Of a DNA stretch of 40,087 nucleotides, positions 3,186 through 12,227 are shown in pieces (positions within the stretch are counted from its first letter, which is position 1; every line of letters begins with the position of its first letter). The position numbers and the translations under genes were made by a program. The DNA is from Acidobacteriota bacterium (GTDB lineage Bacteria > Acidobacteriota > Terriglobia > Versatilivoradales > Versatilivoraceae): assembly GCA_022821775.1 (NCBI GenBank), contig JAJECY010000208.1, positions 1 to 40,087 on the forward strand. Reading direction: 5' to 3'. Under the pieces are notes generated by a model, which did no database searches, was not told where the DNA came from, and saw nothing but the letters and a program-made list of their open reading frames with translations.

Positions 3186-3356
3186 TTAGTCCTCTTCCTT
3201 GGACTCATCGACCAGCATGATCGGGATGTCGTCCCTCACGGGAAAGACCCGTTTGCACCGGGCACATTTCAGGCCGTCGCCGTTGGGGGTCGGAATGACC
3301 GAATCCTTGCAGAGGGGACAGACCAGAATTTCCAGAAGCTCGGGGCTAAGTGGCAT
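3186..3356 (-). CDS. Trm112-family small zinc-ribbon-like protein
   Basis: This 56-residue protein matches the Trm112/UPF0434 (YcaR) family: an N-terminal LLEILVCPLCKD segment, a CxxC pair at residues 13-16, a second CxxC pair (CARC) at 31-34, and the closing FPVRDDIPIMLVDE motif. In eukaryotes and archaea Trm112 activates several methyltransferases; bacterial members are poorly characterised. ATG 3356 is preceded by a strong GGAGGAGA ribosome-binding site 4-5 nt upstream, which fixes the start. It lies 169 bp upstream of clpB on the same strand. About 114 bp of this gene recur inverted and decayed at 12077-12190, so one copy arose by duplication around the 3.4-12 kb island. Confidence 0.9.
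   Translation of the reverse strand: MPLSPELLEILVCPLCKDSVIPTPNGDGLKCARCKRVFPVRDDIPIMLVDESKEED
3196..3309 (-). repeat. Inverted repeat, copy 1 (inside the Trm112-like gene)
   Basis: This 114-bp segment pairs with 12077-12190 in the opposite orientation. A hand alignment without gaps gives about 98 of 114 identical bases. The two copies bracket about 8.8 kb that contains the DUF4268, HEPN and large ATPase genes. Confidence 0.8.
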
Positions 3357-3411
3357 AGGTTCTCCTCCTGCAATTATCCGGTCAGGCGGATCCGAGAATT
3401 TGCGGCTGCCG

Positions 3412-4335
3412 CTATTTGCCGGACGCCTCCTTCGAGGGTTGAGACGTGGAAGCACTCTCGAACACGCGGCGATACTCGACACTCTTGTCGTGGAGCCAGT
3501 CGGCCATGGCCGCCCAATTGCCGCGCTCGTTCGTCGCGAAAGCGCAACTGCTCCTGGCGTAACTGCCCCAGGAGGTTGCGTCACCGATCGCAACTCCCAA
3601 CCCCTCGCGCAGGACCTGCTCCCTGGCCTCAATGCGTTCTCGTACCTCTTCTACCGGCTCGCCCCTTTTGCCGCGCACCCAGATCCCTACGGCCCCTTGG
3701 GCTACGTATAGGGACAAGTATAGCTCTACTGATGGAACCCACATCCAGAACGAGCTTGCCTTGTACGGGATCGGAATCCCGTCGTTCGGATACCGCTTCG
3801 CGTAACACGCCCAGAACTCACGCCGGAAACGGGTCAACTCACTCTCGCTATCGACGGTCTTGCGCACGCTTCGATCCCAGGAACTGGGGCGTTCCAGCAC
3901 CTCGAATAGAGGGACCAGCGGTGAGTCGGCGATCCGCACGACCCGCACTCGCACAGCGAGGAACCCGAAGGACTGTACTGTGTGGTCATTGAGCCAGCGG
4001 ATAGCTGATCGGTGCGATTCGTCGAATTCTCGCGCGATCCAGATAACGGTCTGTGCTTGCACGCCGGCAAGGTAAGTGAGGATCTGGCCCAGGTGGGTGT
4101 GGTCGGAACCCTCCAACTGGTTCTCGATGAGCACCCGGCTGTCATCCGCGAGATTACGGGCGACGATATCCGCCGAGAATTGCTCCACAGCTACTTCCGT
4201 ACCCTCCAACTCCATTTGAAAGCCGACAGCCTTCGACAGCCGCTCCATGTTTGCGGCCAACCACGGTGTGAAGTCGTTCGCCTCATGCCCCCACACCTCT
4301 CGCAGGGTCACGTTTCGCAGTTCGCCAAATTCCAA
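3412..4335 (-). CDS. DUF4268-type PD-(D/E)XK nuclease-like protein
   Basis: The protein resembles DUF4268 proteins, whose N-terminal domain has a PD-(D/E)XK nuclease-like fold. The family-like opening reads VTLREVW...EANDFTPWLAAN. The nuclease-like core carries D56 (SADIVARN) and E71-x-Q73 (VLIENQ), then SDHTHLGQ with H79 and H81. The C-terminal half (about 190-300) fits the aromatic-rich DUF4268 region. I chose TTG 4335 because family similarity begins there, a GGAG site lies 9 nt upstream, and a TATACT box sits at 4394-4389. The open frame could extend to ATG 4470, but that extension looks unlike any family member. It is the downstream gene of the island, 322 bp after the HEPN gene. A nuclease effector or restriction role is inferred; EXQ in place of EXK is a variant seen in this type of fold. 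Confidence 0.75.
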   Translation of the reverse strand: MEFGELRNVTLREVWGHEANDFTPWLAANMERLSKAVGFQMELEGTEVAVEQFSADIVARNLADDSRVLIENQLEGSDHTHLGQILTYLAGVQAQTVIWIAREFDESHRSAIRWLNDHTVQSFGFLAVRVRVVRIADSPLVPLFEVLERPSSWDRSVRKTVDSESELTRFRREFWACYAKRYPNDGIPIPYKASSFWMWVPSVELYLSLYVAQGAVGIWVRGKRGEPVEEVRERIEAREQVLREGLGVAIGDATSWGSYARSSCAFATNERGNWAAMADWLHDKSVEYRRVFESASTSQPSKEASGK

Positions 4336-4657
4336 GGTTCGTCTCTCCACACCCCAACCCCAATCGCCGCCTGTAGCGATTGGCAGAGAGTATAGCAGTC
4401 GATCGCGGACGTCAGCGGCGCAACGGCATGATCTGCCCGCACGCGCCGAAGAAGGCCCAGTACGAAACACCTAAGCGCATCGCACCATCGCCAAGGATAT
4501 TGATCCGGCACGAAGGTCCCAACCCATCAAGCACGTGAACGGAACGCAAGCCCCTCAGAACCAAATGGCTGACGGAACCACAGGCACTGGCAAAGACTCC
4601 CCCGAACCAGTGCTATCACGACTACCGAGAACAAGCGGTGCATACGTCGCGCTTTCT
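4336..4657. other. 322-bp gap between DUF4268 and HEPN genes
   Basis: I see no convincing gene here on either strand. On the minus strand TATACT (4394-4389) lies 15 bp after CTGACG (4415-4410). This is a weak promoter candidate that would start a transcript about 47 nt before the TTG start of the DUF4268 gene. It suggests that gene may be expressed separately from the two upstream genes. Confidence 0.35.
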
Positions 4658-5749
4658 CTACCGGCGCCGCACAAGTTCGAGAGCTCGTTCCGCAGATAGC
4701 GGTCGACAATGCGCAAGATCGTTTCTGATGTTGCGAAGATCCTCCAGTCGACGCTCAGCGTGCCAATCAAAGCCGGGCCGCTCGAACACACGCTTGAGAT
4801 CAGGTATCTCCATTTCGTCTGGATCGGTTCCATTGCCTGTCCTACGGAGATAGGCCGCGATTTGAAAGTGGTGTTGCCGAACGATCTCCAAGCGTTCCGA
4901 CTCGATCGCCGGCAATAAGACTGCCGTCTGCGCACTCCAGACCCTTCGCCGAATTTCCTGCGGTTCTTTGAGTGCCGCCAATGCCGCATGCATCGACCCT
5001 GACCCCGATTCCGTCCCGATTCCCCAGTCCGGTCGCGTCTCGCGAGTCCATCCGCGTTCACGAGCCAGTGATCGCAACGCGTCACCCGGATCCAAGATGA
5101 CCTCTGCCGGCTCCTCCCGCAACGCGGCGGCGACCACACAGTCCCACGCCGCCACCCGTGCCACGGTCGTCGCGAGCAACATCCGCTCCTTCCTGTCGAT
5201 ACCGCGGTCACGCAAGCACCTGTCCGCAAGAAACAGCAAGTCCATCTCATCGACAATGCCACGCCAGTCATGAACCGCCAGGCAAATGTCGCCCGCCACC
5301 CGCGTCGATGGCGCACCGTCCACCAGAGCGACGAACACAGTGCGCTCCCTTGGGTGCACAGCCCCACTGGCGTGCGCGTACGCCGTGAGAAACGACAGCC
5401 ATCCGCCGCAATTGGTCCTGTGCAAACCATCGACCCAAATGAGACGGCGCCGAAACTCTTCTTCTTCACACAGGTCGGCGGCGGTCACTCGCGACACAGC
5501 CGACAACCGCGGCGCGAATCGCTCGCACAGGCCTTGCAGCACGTAACCACCGGACGCAGACTTGATCACCGCGTCCGCTTCAATGGTGGCCCACTGCCGG
5601 TAATCACCCAGTTGCGCTTGCAGTGCCGCCCGAAAACCTGCAGGCGCATCGCCCGGAAATCGTAGAACGACAGTCGCGCCATTCCGCAAAGACCGCTCCA
5701 CGGTTCCGAGATATCCCGCAGGACCTGCCAACGTCCATAGGTCCATCAT
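4658..5749 (-). CDS. HEPN-motif protein coupled to the large ATPase
   Basis: This 363-residue protein is not one I recognise as a named family. Its C-terminus carries a classical HEPN ribonuclease motif, RNDLAH (R342, N343, H347), inside an alpha-helical stretch with EDLRNIRN just before it. The N-terminal two thirds look like a degenerate AAA/STAND-type module: a glycine-rich GPAGYLG start, a hydrophobic VVLRFPGD strand, a Walker-B-like LIWVDGL without the usual DE pair, and a following strand TVFVALVDG. No Walker A lysine is present. The start ATG 5749 overlaps the stop of the 2010-aa ATPase gene (ATGA), so the two are almost certainly co-translated; a second in-frame ATG follows directly. 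By analogy with HEPN effectors in toxin and abortive-infection systems, it may cleave RNA when the ATPase partner senses a trigger. That role is inference. Confidence 0.7.
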   Translation of the reverse strand: MMDLWTLAGPAGYLGTVERSLRNGATVVLRFPGDAPAGFRAALQAQLGDYRQWATIEADAVIKSASGGYVLQGLCERFAPRLSAVSRVTAADLCEEEEFRRRLIWVDGLHRTNCGGWLSFLTAYAHASGAVHPRERTVFVALVDGAPSTRVAGDICLAVHDWRGIVDEMDLLFLADRCLRDRGIDRKERMLLATTVARVAAWDCVVAAALREEPAEVILDPGDALRSLARERGWTRETRPDWGIGTESGSGSMHAALAALKEPQEIRRRVWSAQTAVLLPAIESERLEIVRQHHFQIAAYLRRTGNGTDPDEMEIPDLKRVFERPGFDWHAERRLEDLRNIRNDLAHCRPLSAERALELVRRR

Positions 5750-8700
5750 GCGGATCCGCCACCGAGAAGTCTCTCGACTAGCGAATTGAACCGCCATTGG
5801 TCCTCAGCGCGTGTCAGAAGTCCCAGGCGTTCACCCCATATTGCCCGCCGCTCTAGTACCGTTGGATCCGCTCCCTCGAGATCCGACACACTCTTGATAT
5901 CACTCGGACCAAAGGGCTGGTGACGCAACAGCATGCCCAACTCCGTTCCGACGGCCGGAGTTATGCCAAGACGCAACAACCATTCTCTCTTTCCTTCCAA
6001 CTCCCGTCGCAACCGATCGATCCTTTTGTCCCAATCCATACTATTTCTCGACCGCCGGACGAATCGATCAAGAGCCATTGACCATCCACCGGAAAGCGCC
6101 ATAAGTGCCTTCCTGCCGTCGCGATCGCAAGGTAGCGTGTTGTCGTCAAGCCACTGACGCACGAAAATCTCATCCCATGGGGCGATGCTGATCCAATCTG
6201 GCTCGATCGGGGTTGTCTCCAAACCGATCATCACCTGCCAGAGTCTGTCGGGGTCTGTCACAAACACAACTCTGAGCAAATGCCCAAACTTTTTCCTCTT
6301 CAAAGCGGACGTCGCTACCTTAAGCCACTCGGAATCCCATGAGGCGTCGGGCGGCACCAGCACCACATTGATAGCGTCCGCCGAACCAGGCTGCAGTTTC
6401 ATTAAATTCTGCTGGAATTCCACCACATCCTTGGAAACAGAGAGTCTGTGGAAGGACTGCTTTTCGATTCGCTGCGGCAGAAAGTCCGCCACACTTCCAA
6501 TCTCTGCGGCATCGCATCCCGCAACAACCGCCACACCGCCCCTAGCCCTCAGCATTGACTCCTGCTCGTAGGTCAAGGGGCAACGGCGGCTCGCACCGTT
6601 GTCAGCATCACTCTGACGGGCATGAAAAACCGATGGCTCGAACTTCGTCGGCAGTTCTCGCGGACTATCCAAAGCCCGGGCGATCTCTTCTTCGTTCCCG
6701 AGTAGCGAGACGATGTACCTATTGCGAAACGTGTAACACCTTCCCCCTTCTGTGGATCGGAGTACGCCGAGCCCTTCCATTTCCTGGAGCAGGACGTTGA
6801 ACTCCCGACTGTCATCCCCGAATCCCTCCGGCCACCAGCCGCTGGCGTATTCCCTAATCTTCCCACGATCCAAACTGCGCCGATCCTCTTGCGGATTTCC
6901 CCTCAATTCGAAGGCCAGCGCGTAGGCGATCACAAAGTACCTTGGATCGAGTTCTAGCGTCCACCGGAAGCGTTCTCGGATAGCGTTGCGAAGCTCGTTG
7001 CCTCGATACACATCAGTGATATCCGTGGCCTGTATGTCGTACGGTACCGGTTTTCTCGAGTCGCGCAAGCGTCGGACCAGTGCCTCCCCGTAGAGCTGTA
7101 TCAGGGATGGATAGTAGTTCGTTTGCCACAGAATCCGGGTGCTCAGATCCCGGACCGCAAATCCGTATCCCACCGACTGCAACGGCTCCCGAATTAGCTG
7201 TTGGGCATGCAGCCACTCACGATTGTCCAACAACGGCCCAACTTTGATCGGAACACCGAAATGAGCCAACGGATGGTTGGCGCGCTGGGTCGTTCGCAAC
7301 ACGTTGTGCAGTCCTGCAAAAACCACCTTGAATCCACGATCGGTGCGGTCCATCAGCCCTTTCAACCGAGTCGATTCTCGAAAATCTGTCCTGGCGTCAG
7401 CATCAAGAAAATTGTCCGCCTCGTCCAGCAGAAGCAGCAACCGGCGGTTTCCCCGATCCGTGACCCATTGGCCGATCATGTCGATGAGCTTTCTGATGTG
7501 GTCTGCGTTGTCCGGATTCGGTTCCTCAGGCAACTGCACCCGCTTCACGACTTTGAGTTGACACAGTTCTCGCCAAAGCAAAGGCCAGATTTCGGCCGCC
7601 TTTCGCGCATGACCGATCTCTCGTGCCTTCAGATCAATCCATTTCGCGATCTGCTGCTTGTCAGGCTGATGGAACTCCCGCTCGACGGTCCGCAAGAGCG
7701 CCGTCTTACCGAGTTGACGTCCTCCATAGATGAAACACGTGCCGGTTTTTTTAGTGATTATCTCACGCTCACGTGCGCGACCGAAGAACAACTCGGGGGG
7801 TACGTACCCCGGGGTCGTAACGTAAGGTTCCACGGCCGTCAACGGTAGTGCACAGCAAAACAGCGCCGACAATCGCTCCGATCCACGAGGTGCCAGGAAA
7901 ACCACCAGTGCCGGATCAATTACCAGGAAAACTCGATGCTCATCGATCGCCCAGCGTCTCAACCAGTTTCTGTCTGCTCCCAGTGGTTCAAAATGAAGCA
8001 CAATCGTCGCGGCGTCCTGCGACCCGCTCATGATTTGCGGAATCGACTCTCGAGCGGTCTTTCCCCAATCGAGTAGGACGCGGTACCGTCCGCGAGCAGC
8101 GGAGCCGAACTGCGGAAGAGGGCATCGCGATCTGTCCTGAACGAAGTCGGTCTCCACTATGGCCTCAGCCCAATTCCGCCCCTGATTTTCCGGTTCCGGC
8201 GGGATACTGCGTAACGGCAGCCCGAGAGAAGTCAGTAGGTCATCCACCGTCTCCTTGAGGTACACCTTCCTTCGGGAGAGTTCTTCCCAGGCGCCAATCA
8301 GTTGCACCGCCGGTTCAATCTCCGATTCGGACATTTCTTCGAAGCGGACGCCGTCAACTGTCTTTCGCTCCTCTGCCGCCTTGACGAACACCTCAATCCC
8401 GTTCGCGTCGATGAGGCGGCGCTCGATTCCATCAACGACCTCGATGAACTCGCGAAACAACTCTCTCCGTTCCGATGCATCGGGATCGAGCCGCTCCCCC
8501 TTCTCAATCCGCGACATCAATTCGTCGGCCGTGAGAAGATCTCCCTGGTCGATCGCGTGCTCGACACGCAGTCGCCCGTCGGGCTCACAACCAACTGCCA
8601 GCGACTTGAACTTCGTGCGTGCCTCTGCCTTGCCCTTCTCCGTATGGGCGGCCAGCGATTGGCGAATTCTTTTGAGTCGAGCCTCTGCAGCACCGATGGC

Positions 8701-11700
8701 ATTGGTCTGCTGTTCGTTTTGGAGTTGGTCCTCAACCCAGACGAGATCCGTGCGCAGAGAGACTTCCTCTTCATCGGACAGTTGTTTAAAACAGAAGACT
8801 TGCTCCAACTCTTCCTGTAGCTCCGCATGTTTTTCCAGCAACTCGATTCGGCGCTTTCGTTCCGCTCGATCCAGAGAGGCACGGCACTGGTCCAGCCCAC
8901 TCTCCGGCTCGGTGCCTTTCGCCCCGCCAGCCTTCTCCATCATGTGGTATGCCAACCTGGCCCCGTGAAGGTCTCCCCGGTCGAGACGAGCCTGACACGC
9001 AGCACCCAAAGTCTGGGCATGGGCATCGACATCAGCCAGTAGACCGAGTGTGTCGGCGCCGTCGGGCGCAACCAGCCGGTGGGCATCCATGTCGACATCG
9101 AAACCAGTCACATACAGTAGATCGTTGGTCAGGAGAGCATCGGGGTTCTCAGAGCTAACTCCAACCGAATCAGGTTCCTCAAACAACCGATGCAACGCGT
9201 CGACAGTGGCCCCGGCACGGGTTAGTGCTGCACACAACGGCCCCGGCACGCTCAATCCCACGACTCTCTCGATTGCTTGTCTGGCGCGACCGCCACGCTG
9301 CTCGACTTTACGTCGTAGCGCCTCGAGACTCAGGTCGACAAAGTTGGCCCTTGATTCGGGCGCGGCATCGATCAGCCGTAACCACTCCTTAGCCAACTGA
9401 ATCAGCGGCTCAGCGTGTTGCTCCAACTGCGGACGAGCCCGTCCTTCTATGCTCCCGCGTTTCCCAGGTCGAACCCTCGCATAAGTATCCTCGACAAGGC
9501 TGTCAAAGGATTTCCTTGTACTTAGCTGCTCAATAAGGTGCTTGATCTGACGTTTCCCGCCAGCCTCGCGATTCAAGAGGAGAGCAGCCAACTTGCCGAG
9601 ACAGCCGGCATCTTCCAGCCACTTCAGCCAAACGCGATGAGCTGGTCCGTACAAAATCCGCTGTCTCTTCGCTTTCGCCAGCCAGTCGCGGGTACGGGCA
9701 CGGATACTCTCGAGTTGCTCCGTCCAGTCGAACCCAGCGAACAGCGAAATGTCGAGTCGCACATGCTGCAGGCGTTCCGCATGTTCCGCCACAGCAACGG
9801 CGAAATCACAGACCGGGGCCAGAGAATCAGATAGGTTGATTCGACGCAATAATGACGGAGCCCCTGTCGCGGGGACAATCAAGGCCGGTCGGATGGTTGC
9901 ACTGAACAGTAACAAGTGAAGGCTGTCCCGTAGGTGCGGATCGGATTCCGACATTCGATCTGGATCAACCTGCCGGAGTTGTTTCTCAAGTGCGTGGGCG
10001 ATCTTGTCATCCGCCGAACGCACATGGTCTGATAGTATCGTGGCCGCGACGAGGTCTGGTGGAGGCAACGCTGAATGGGAGCAGTTCTGCTCTGAAAGAA
10101 GGCGCGCAATGTGGTACGCGATTCCGGGCCGATGATTGATCGAACTCCAGAGGGCGTCGATTGCATCTGTGGAAGGCAGGATCGGCGCATCTTGTGACTC
10201 GGCAGGCAACCGTGCTTTGGCAGTTGTCACAGGATGCCGCACACCGCCTTTCGCACCTTCCAAGGGTTCCCCAGGATCGGCGGTTTTGGCATCACCGACC
10301 GAAGCGTTTTCGGCCGTGTCCGAGTCCCGAGATGCTTCGAAAGGTTCCGAAGCAGTTGTGGTGGCATAGTCTGGTGTCACGCCATCGGAGGGCACGGAAT
10401 CCGGTAGAACGTGTTCATTCTTCTGCGTACCGGCAGCACTGTGGATCTGGGATTTAGGTTGTGCCTGCTCCGCCGAACTGTCATTCCTAACAGTATCCCG
10501 TTGCATCCATTCTGTTTCGTAGTCCTTCGATGGATCGAATTTACAGCCCTCCGGCGCCACCCGGTCGAGCACGTCAAGCACGGAGGTTTGTCCTTGGTCC
10601 CTGTGGCGAGCAATGGACTTCGCCAGTTCGCCTCTTTGATTCTCGGTACTCAAAAAGCTCTCGAGGTTGTCCCCGGGTTGCTCGGGTAATGTGCTCAACT
10701 TGGCTTCGAGACGCACGATCTCATCCCTGGTGCGGCGCCATGCACTCAAGGCGTTCGGCAACTCCGATTCGACGCGCTTGATTTCCCTTCGAAGCTGGTC
10801 TGCTGCGCTGCCACCAGAGATCAGATAACGCAACTTCCACTGAGCATGTATCTGGCCAATCGCGTTGCGGAGCCAGTGTGCATCGTGTTCCTCAGCCAGA
10901 GCAGTAATTGTATCGGCAATCTGTTGAACCAGCTTCTCTAGCCGCTTTGCGTCCTGCACAGCCAGTAGCGAGTCGTGGAGTTCATCAAGGGCCTGTACTG
11001 CCCTGTGCAGGTCGGGCAAGAGTTGTGGCTGCGGGGAATCAGCCCCCATTTTCGACAGTAGCGCAACTGCTTCTCGACAGCTCCTATTCCACCTTTGAAT
11101 GACATCATTATCGTCACAGGGAGAATCGTCATCTTCTTCCGCTCCGGCATCTCCCTGGCGGGAATCGAGGGCAAACGCGAATTCGTCCGCCAAGTCGGGG
11201 ACCTGTTCACCCGCCCAGCGCAGAAGCGCCACGTCTTCAAGCACAGTCGCAACCGCAAACACGGCGGCGACAACACAGCTCTGCCGCTCCGGAGAGCACT
11301 CTGCCCAGTTGAGAACGTCCTGACGGAGGCTCGGCCAAACTGCCAGTGCCGGGCGACACGAGTCGGGAAAGTCGGCCAGTGATTGGTTGGCGTCGGAGAG
11401 ATTCGGGAGCATTTCGGCAAGTTCCTGCTCACGCACCTCTCGTGTCAAGTACTCTGGGTCGTATACCACCAAAGCGCGATGTTCCATCGACGGGAACAAA
11501 TCGTTTGGTTTGTCCACGACCGGCAACGTCCTATCCCAGTGATCCCGCCGAAAACCGGGTTGCGAGTACATAGTGGTGATGTAGAACCGGTGCCGTTCCT
11601 TGGTCGGCAGGCCCTTTGGCGGACGCAGGTTTGGGCTCGCTCGCTTGAATTGAGCGGCAAGTTGTTGACGTGCGGGTCGGCTGATGCCTAGGAGGTCGCA

Positions 11701-11778
11701 TAGCCGCACAAATCCTTGCTCGCCGACGAATCGCTTCGGCAGGCCGGTCGCGAATCGAGTCGCTTCTGTTTGGGTCAT
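5746..11778 (-). CDS. Giant 2010-aa ATPase of a putative defence system
   Basis: I do not recognise the full-length family. An N-terminal helical region (to about 500) leads into acidic low-complexity sequence and then long helical, partly coiled-coil sequence up to about residue 1230. A GRAREREI box typical of Orc1/STAND-like ATPases precedes an intact Walker A, GGRQLGKT with K1358, and a Walker B LLLLLDEAD with D1452 and E1453. An arginine-rich sensor region and a winged-helix-like segment (about 1600-1700) follow. The last 300 residues form a second module with ATPase-like strand pattern but no GKT/S. ATG 11778 was chosen over TTG 11799; no clear Shine-Dalgarno precedes either. Its stop overlaps the HEPN gene start. 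A sensor or regulator ATPase driving a HEPN effector is the inferred role. Confidence 0.7.
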   Translation of the reverse strand: MTQTEATRFATGLPKRFVGEQGFVRLCDLLGISRPARQQLAAQFKRASPNLRPPKGLPTKERHRFYITTMYSQPGFRRDHWDRTLPVVDKPNDLFPSMEHRALVVYDPEYLTREVREQELAEMLPNLSDANQSLADFPDSCRPALAVWPSLRQDVLNWAECSPERQSCVVAAVFAVATVLEDVALLRWAGEQVPDLADEFAFALDSRQGDAGAEEDDDSPCDDNDVIQRWNRSCREAVALLSKMGADSPQPQLLPDLHRAVQALDELHDSLLAVQDAKRLEKLVQQIADTITALAEEHDAHWLRNAIGQIHAQWKLRYLISGGSAADQLRREIKRVESELPNALSAWRRTRDEIVRLEAKLSTLPEQPGDNLESFLSTENQRGELAKSIARHRDQGQTSVLDVLDRVAPEGCKFDPSKDYETEWMQRDTVRNDSSAEQAQPKSQIHSAAGTQKNEHVLPDSVPSDGVTPDYATTTASEPFEASRDSDTAENASVGDAKTADPGEPLEGAKGGVRHPVTTAKARLPAESQDAPILPSTDAIDALWSSINHRPGIAYHIARLLSEQNCSHSALPPPDLVAATILSDHVRSADDKIAHALEKQLRQVDPDRMSESDPHLRDSLHLLLFSATIRPALIVPATGAPSLLRRINLSDSLAPVCDFAVAVAEHAERLQHVRLDISLFAGFDWTEQLESIRARTRDWLAKAKRQRILYGPAHRVWLKWLEDAGCLGKLAALLLNREAGGKRQIKHLIEQLSTRKSFDSLVEDTYARVRPGKRGSIEGRARPQLEQHAEPLIQLAKEWLRLIDAAPESRANFVDLSLEALRRKVEQRGGRARQAIERVVGLSVPGPLCAALTRAGATVDALHRLFEEPDSVGVSSENPDALLTNDLLYVTGFDVDMDAHRLVAPDGADTLGLLADVDAHAQTLGAACQARLDRGDLHGARLAYHMMEKAGGAKGTEPESGLDQCRASLDRAERKRRIELLEKHAELQEELEQVFCFKQLSDEEEVSLRTDLVWVEDQLQNEQQTNAIGAAEARLKRIRQSLAAHTEKGKAEARTKFKSLAVGCEPDGRLRVEHAIDQGDLLTADELMSRIEKGERLDPDASERRELFREFIEVVDGIERRLIDANGIEVFVKAAEERKTVDGVRFEEMSESEIEPAVQLIGAWEELSRRKVYLKETVDDLLTSLGLPLRSIPPEPENQGRNWAEAIVETDFVQDRSRCPLPQFGSAARGRYRVLLDWGKTARESIPQIMSGSQDAATIVLHFEPLGADRNWLRRWAIDEHRVFLVIDPALVVFLAPRGSERLSALFCCALPLTAVEPYVTTPGYVPPELFFGRAREREIITKKTGTCFIYGGRQLGKTALLRTVEREFHQPDKQQIAKWIDLKAREIGHARKAAEIWPLLWRELCQLKVVKRVQLPEEPNPDNADHIRKLIDMIGQWVTDRGNRRLLLLLDEADNFLDADARTDFRESTRLKGLMDRTDRGFKVVFAGLHNVLRTTQRANHPLAHFGVPIKVGPLLDNREWLHAQQLIREPLQSVGYGFAVRDLSTRILWQTNYYPSLIQLYGEALVRRLRDSRKPVPYDIQATDITDVYRGNELRNAIRERFRWTLELDPRYFVIAYALAFELRGNPQEDRRSLDRGKIREYASGWWPEGFGDDSREFNVLLQEMEGLGVLRSTEGGRCYTFRNRYIVSLLGNEEEIARALDSPRELPTKFEPSVFHARQSDADNGASRRCPLTYEQESMLRARGGVAVVAGCDAAEIGSVADFLPQRIEKQSFHRLSVSKDVVEFQQNLMKLQPGSADAINVVLVPPDASWDSEWLKVATSALKRKKFGHLLRVVFVTDPDRLWQVMIGLETTPIEPDWISIAPWDEIFVRQWLDDNTLPCDRDGRKALMALSGGWSMALDRFVRRSRNSMDWDKRIDRLRRELEGKREWLLRLGITPAVGTELGMLLRHQPFGPSDIKSVSDLEGADPTVLERRAIWGERLGLLTRAEDQWRFNSLVERLLGGGSA

Positions 11779-12227
11779 ATCAAGCGGGAAAAGGCACAAG
11801 CAGAACTGCCACAGTTGTGCGGGTAACTACTGATCCAAGTCCAGACCCGGCCATGCTCAGGCCTGTGGGCAATAGTCGGAGAATCGAAACGCAGACCGTG
11901 TTCGGCCGCTTCCAGTCGCCCGACTGCTCCGGGATGGCAACGCACACGGGCGCCAACAGGGACACATCCCGCACGACGGTTCGCCAGTGCCGATTTGCGG
12001 GAAGGCTTGGTGCTCCAGGCTGCGGAGCCGTTCCTGCGCACGGCATCCCCCCGCGTGGACACACCTTCGGCCCCACCAAGGAATCGGTCAGTCCGACCCC
12101 CAACGGCGACGGCCCGAAATGTCTCAGGTGCAAACGGGTCAATCCCGTCAGGGATGACTTCCCGATCATGCTGGTCAAAAAGAACAAGGTAAGCGATTGC
12201 CGGCAGGGTGCGATGCCGGCGTCTTTC
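11779..12227. other. 449-bp gap upstream of the large ATPase gene
   Basis: The gap separates the ATPase gene start from the DUF4340 stop. Its only recognisable content is the decayed Trm112 fragment at 12077-12190. A GCCGGC/GCCGGC stem with a 10-nt loop at 12199-12220 lies just past the DUF4340 stop, but it lacks a clear U-tract. I could not find a convincing promoter for the ATPase gene. Confidence 0.5.
12077..12190 (+). pseudogene. Decayed inverted fragment of the Trm112-like gene
   Basis: On the plus strand this stretch encodes a peptide parallel to residues 16-53 of the Trm112-like protein at 3186-3356. The shared core is SPTPNGDG...KC..CKRV.PVRDD.PIMLV. The second CxxC pair survives as CLRC, but the N-terminal LVCPLC segment with the first CxxC pair is missing and no start codon with a ribosome-binding site is in place. 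About 98 of 114 bases match the intact copy by hand alignment. It is therefore a gene fragment in inverted orientation at the far end of the accessory island. Confidence 0.8.

Follow-up and report, generated by a model that had tools for sequence, protein, structure and literature searches.

A giant AAA+ ATPase and a HEPN partner form a candidate defence module on an 8.8-kb island of an Acidobacteriota genome

The pairing of a STAND-type NTPase with an RNase effector is already known from prokaryotic immunity. Among the closest described relatives, the BREX-related systems centred on DUF499/BrxC and the systems with DndF-type ATPases have a STAND/ORC-Cdc6 core that is optionally equipped with a HEPN domain (PMC12839542, PMC10853773). 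HEPN domains themselves are defined (PMC3710099) by an Rx4-6H motif with a polar residue after the arginine, placed at the end of helix 3. Published pPIWI-RE operons join pPIWI-RE to an REase and a DinG helicase, in a text without an ATPase or AAA domain, and the module has been proposed to act in inter-genomic conflict (PMC3702460). Here, we report a pair of coupled genes from an Acidobacteriota bacterium, encoding a giant ATPase and a HEPN protein, which deserves the label of candidate defence module.

The window (the whole stretch of DNA analysed) comprises 40,087 nucleotides of contig JAJECY010000208.1 (GenBank assembly GCA_022821775.1), in which an island at 3405 to 12197 holds only three genes, all on the minus strand. 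The genes flanking the island are present in all six congeneric genomes at about 81 to 96% nucleotide identity, and in 6/6 of these a few tens of bases take the place of the stretch from about 3405 to 12197, with nothing homologous to it; the trio is therefore one 8.8-kb insertion, or else was cleanly lost in all six. Inside the right end of the island (12077 to 12189, plus strand) lies a degenerate inverted copy of the neighbouring Trm112-like gene, 86% identical over 113 nt to the local gene (arm at 3197 to 3309) and 84 to 91% identical to the congeners' gene. The copy is equally close to the genes of other congeners, which suggests that a related species, at the same site, was the source of the island. 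Inspection of the island ends by eye recognised no integrase, att-like repeat or target-site duplication.

The first gene (P0001; 5746 to 11778, minus strand) encodes a protein of 2010 aa, assigned as a giant STAND/ORC-Cdc6-like AAA+ ATPase from its open reading frame, motifs, family alignments and structure model. The single intact Walker A/B pair attributed to it in an earlier note made from the sequence alone is present and invariant across 43- and 51-row family alignments, both in Walker A (GGRQLGKT with K1358; 7702 to 7725, minus strand; G, G, R, G and K invariant) and in Walker B (LLLLDE with D1452-E1453; 7420 to 7437, minus strand; D and E invariant). A GLHNV-R segment is invariant or nearly invariant in the family alignment, and Pfam returned AAA_22 at 1.1e-5, slightly below the curated cut-off. 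The core was modelled over residues 1065-2010 (pLDDT 89; plasmid-derived sequences were left out of the alignment rows used for structure models). Its best Foldseek matches were PABY2304 (E 1e-6, TMt 0.64), SSO1545, Orc1/Cdc6 (1.6e-6), including DNA-bound Orc1/Cdc6, and TnsC, with CED-4 and plant NLRs lower down, so that the fold as well as both Walker motifs places the protein in the AAA+ class. The predicted models show an active STAND/ORC-Cdc6-like AAA+ domain (residues ~1335-1640) and, after its helical lid, what we read as a second alpha/beta region that has no P-loop, a degenerate AAA-like fold (~1735-2010). The N-terminal ~1000 aa vary strongly among homologues; the N-terminal half of the window ATPase has no Pfam match, and pPIWI-RE X, MID and RNaseH domains are absent from the protein.

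The second gene (4658 to 5749, minus strand) begins with a 4-nt overlap (ATGA) with the end of the ATPase gene, in keeping with the translational coupling already proposed, and its 363-aa product has the C-terminal RNxxxH motif described with it. In the predicted structure (pLDDT 94.5), residues 1-231 (5057 to 5749, minus strand) form an AAA-like domain, delimited with Foldseek and a motif scan: the whole chain matched RFC clamp loaders and other AAA+ proteins (best E 3e-4; whole-chain TM-scores low, 0.26-0.35), and a GxxxxGK[ST] Walker A was found in this domain in 0/65 partners. Residues 245-363 (4661 to 5017, minus strand), assigned to HEPN from alignment, predicted structure and Pfam, are helical with pLDDT >90, the whole-chain Foldseek matches being led by the N-terminal AAA-like part. 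HEPN_Swt1 was the commonest Pfam match (15/54 partner members; best E 0.004, all below the gathering score) and matched the window partner weakly (E 0.06). The putative active-site motif RNDLAH (4709 to 4726, minus strand) includes the two most conserved columns among 65 aligned partners, R342 being kept in 64/64 and H347 in 63/63 where aligned, which argues against a chance motif; N follows R in 55/64, and the next most conserved positions are W, D and other scaffold residues. R342 lies near the end of helix 329-346 and H347 is the first loop residue, ahead of helix 353-361, so that the partner has the Rx4-6H motif, the polar residue after R and the helix-end/loop-start placement of HEPN proteins. 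We interpret it from these models as a probable AAA-like adaptor that lost Walker A, joined to a C-terminal HEPN domain and predicted to be an RNase. At one homologous locus (L087:15266-16371), the partner's RNKLAH motif is in another frame, through sequencing error or decay.

The trio had been described as matching no named system, which remains true of the pair: PADLOC, NCBIfam and PDB sequence searches name nothing for it, and Pfam gives only the sub-threshold AAA_22 and HEPN_Swt1. In PADLOC, the ATPase and partner matched no Avs or other STAND model and only LmuB at E 0.039; neither DUF499 (Pfam) nor BrxC (PADLOC) was matched by the window proteins. The third gene (3412 to 4470, minus strand), by contrast, has a name, its product matching the PADLOC candidate PDC-S11 at 1.3e-82 over residues 46-341, an extent that suggests a true start near GTG 4350, not 4470. 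It had been called a DUF4268 nuclease-like protein on the same strand; the strand is as described, whereas Pfam gave no family at E<=1 to confirm the label. A gap of 187-308 nt, without coupling, separates it from the partner gene. Beside the other 91 ATPase loci, among the matches listed, no PDC-S11 homologue is found; relatives occur elsewhere without the pair, and this genome itself has one more such PDC-S11 (DUF4268-like) gene (G000:C90:56324-56830, 43% identical). Of the two roles offered for this protein, second effector or separate unit, the latter fits: it is probably a candidate defence gene in its own right, carried along on the island.

Homologues of the pair were collected from 27 plasmid records, 80 genome loci and two viral contigs, the 80 loci being those used out of at least 549 confirmed ATPase relatives among at least 592 candidate genome stretches. 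The comparison covered 92 loci, spread over more than a dozen phyla, with the window locus and one near-duplicate counted among them and the genome loci taken from the matches listed. That homologues of the two coupled genes co-occur was borne out: among the matches listed, a partner homologue lies immediately downstream of the ATPase in 67/92 loci or, leaving aside 12 cyanobacterial loci treated below, in 67/73 of those where 1 kb or more of sequence follows the ATPase gene, and the partner start is offset from the ATPase stop by -3 in 29 loci and by 0 in 9. A plasmid search with the partner alone returned 4 records, every one beside an independently found ATPase homologue. Across 297 genomes of the phylum, the ATPase occurs in 5, the partner in 5 and both in 4 (chance expectation 0.08); the exceptions are an ATPase without this partner (G373) and a truncated partner without ATPase (G302). 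The two proteins diverge in a correlated way (Mantel r=0.83, reached by 0/999 permutations; best permutation 0.17), which indicates joint travel rather than contact because shared ancestry contributes.

PADLOC matches are in excess among the genes flanking homologues: 76 PADLOC families (E<=1e-15) were found among 130 such genes versus 3 among 133 control genes, where counts are of redundant families, not genes, and the controls were drawn from contigs of relatives of the window rather than from the genomes of the homologues. The flanking matches include two TatD-type DNases (QatD) and, in a few cases, the HKD-helicase partner of the cyanobacterial loci. The Agrobacterium homologue adjoins ThiF and patatin genes, which we read as CBASS-like, and that of Methylocystis adjoins STY4851-type and helicase genes, which we read as Druantia-like; on other annotated plasmids the neighbours are N-6 DNA methylase or HipA-toxin genes. 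Many neighbours are ordinary metabolic genes by Pfam, which makes the link to defence islands a partial one, and the expected neighbourhood of known defence genes was found to that extent.

The family is rare and patchy, occurring in 2/101 relatives, 5/297 genomes of the phylum and 4/292 cyanobacteria; phage records gave no homologue, and IMG/VR gave two contigs only. A mainly core, non-mobile context, named in the earlier note as one of the findings that would count against its proposal, is not what we see: beside this patchiness there are the 6/6 empty sites and many plasmid copies, although many homologues do sit among metabolic genes. Adjacency, co-divergence, invariant catalytic residues, patchiness, empty sites and the PADLOC excess support that note's view of the ATPase-HEPN pair as an accessory, transferable conflict system.

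Some relatives of the ATPase carry other modules. In 12 cyanobacterial loci, a sigma-70 factor is fused N-terminal to the ATPase (L003:5640-12509, with regions 1.2, 2, 3 and 4; L023, L025, L027, L031, L032, L033, L039, L044, L050, L053 and L069), and in most of them an HKD-nuclease/SNF2 helicase gene adjoins it, upstream or downstream, in place of HEPN. The tree sets these loci beside cyanobacterial HEPN-type members, which makes replacement of HEPN in this group probable. Single proteins of 3100-3400 aa in which pPIWI-RE is N-terminal to the ATPase are encoded by plasmids of Microvirga, Azospirillum and Bradyrhizobium and by one viral contig (L007:2702-12886, L009:3185-12955, L140:3155-12457 and L092:783-10316), with X, MID and RNaseH domains in L007 and L140 and RNaseH only in L092. 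The sampled plasmid cases have a HEPN partner with an added C-terminal AAA_33 kinase-like domain. A large P-loop protein gene lies upstream at the pPIWI-RE-fused loci. Agrobacterium has such a HEPN-AAA_33 partner beside an ATPase without pPIWI-RE, and branches with the pPIWI-RE-fused members. On a Euzebya plasmid (L142:11784-14471), an ATPase homologue is coupled to an 895-aa TPR-type protein, not a HEPN partner, possibly another effector swap.

Taken together, we consider it rather probable that the two coupled genes, on an island that moves horizontally, encode an immune module in which an NTPase gates a HEPN RNase. The switch would be the giant ATPase, with its variable ~1000-aa N-terminal half and post-AAA region as likely sensor and scaffold; the on/off state would be stored by its single intact AAA+ domain. 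A phage or plasmid product would trigger the ATPase into an ATP-bound, probably oligomeric form. The 363-aa partner may dock via the AAA-like domain that lost Walker A, carrying the C-terminal HEPN domain with it. HEPN RNases usually act as dimers, and the activated switch would bring HEPN domains together to cut cellular and/or invader RNA, aborting the infection, an anti-phage outcome. A wider proposal is more tentative and falls somewhat short of an even bet: the ATPase may be the common core of undescribed, widespread immune machines with exchangeable effectors (a HEPN RNase in the window type; an N-terminal pPIWI-RE guide-binding module with HEPN-kinase on alphaproteobacterial plasmids; or N-terminal sigma-70 with HKD-nuclease/SNF2 helicase in cyanobacteria). 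Guided recognition, transcription machinery and abortive infection gated by an NTPase would then be brought together within a single lineage.

Other accounts start from the same observations. Foldseek matches to DNA-bound Orc1/Cdc6 and TnsC, and the pairing of cyanobacterial relatives with an HKD-nuclease/SNF2 helicase, the effector type reported for Type-2 BREX-related systems (PMC12839542), would suit a restriction-like DNA-sensing complex comparable to the DUF499/BrxC-centred systems, in which an ORC/Cdc6/TnsC-like ATPase would engage invader DNA, by binding or loading, with HEPN as a suicidal back-up; the window island has no methyltransferase, PglZ or helicase, and DUF499 is unmatched in Pfam, and we hold this to be unlikely. 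Translational coupling, mobility and plasmid location are what would be expected of a toxin-antitoxin-like or plasmid-maintenance unit, with an always dangerous HEPN RNase that the ATPase mainly restrains, to the gain of the mobile element and not of host immunity. Known antitoxins are, however, far smaller than this ATPase, with its 2000 aa, its conserved active AAA+ domain and its rapidly varying N-terminal half, and the ATPase gene stands first in the loci examined, which makes such a unit unlikely. In known HEPN-MNT pairs, the companion of HEPN is a small nucleotidyltransferase (PMC3710099), whereas here no minimal nucleotidyltransferase adjoins the partner and the neighbour is an AAA+ ATPase.

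The sigma-70 fusion, as transcription control, and the many homologues beside ordinary genes could instead point to a role outside defence, in which the pair would regulate RNA turnover or development of environmentally versatile bacteria. Against such a role stand the rare and patchy occurrence in phylum and genus, the empty sites in all congeners and the PADLOC excess near homologues, and we judge it quite improbable. Finally, the trio lies in one insertion and on one strand, and PDC-S11 is itself a PADLOC candidate, so one three-component system with PDC-S11 as second effector was considered; its absence from the other 91 loci (among the matches listed), the standalone copies and the 187-308 nt gap make this highly improbable, and PDC-S11 was rejected as a third component.

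The preferred reading, an NTPase-gated HEPN RNase module, can be set against known systems. With the STAND/MNS-clade and ORC-Cdc6-like NTPases (PABY2304, SSO1545, Avs, NLRs, CED-4), the window ATPase shares a single intact Walker A/B AAA+ domain and, with STAND NTPases, a large, multidomain build and a variable region that could sense. Unlike STAND NTPases and Avs, it has its effector in a separate coupled gene and an active AAA followed by a degenerate AAA-like fold, and it matches no Avs model in PADLOC. The partner resembles HEPN RNases (Swt1/Abi2-like) in its R-N-x3-H motif, which lies where helix 3 ends and has invariant R and H. It differs from known ones in the fusion of HEPN to a Walker A-less AAA-like domain and in the link to an ATPase of ~2000 aa, a pairing absent from the HEPN families described in the available part of PMC3710099. 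The DUF499/BrxC-centred and DndF-type ATPases introduced above have the same kind of core and a HEPN effector, and BREX-related systems share the HKD nuclease-helicase with some relatives of the window ATPase; unlike BREX-related and Dnd systems, the island has no methyltransferase, PglZ or Dnd genes and no DUF499 match, and its HEPN is in a partner subunit conserved in most loci. In the resources searched, the pair, the AAA-like adaptor and the effector exchanges appear under no name, nor were the pair and fusions found in the open-access literature, and priority is not claimed. If the preferred reading is true, a multi-phylum immune module joins NTPase-gated RNase immunity, as a two-gene cassette with directly testable predicted catalytic residues, and the exchange of HEPN, HKD-helicase, pPIWI-RE and sigma-70 on one conserved switch would be a natural experiment on sensor-effector wiring. 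The window ATPase differs from pPIWI-RE systems (PMC3702460) in having no pPIWI-RE domains, while its relatives with N-terminal pPIWI-RE X, MID and RNaseH domains resemble them and keep the HEPN partner; these would provide a setting where a prokaryotic Argonaute relative may be the recognition part of an NTPase/RNase system.
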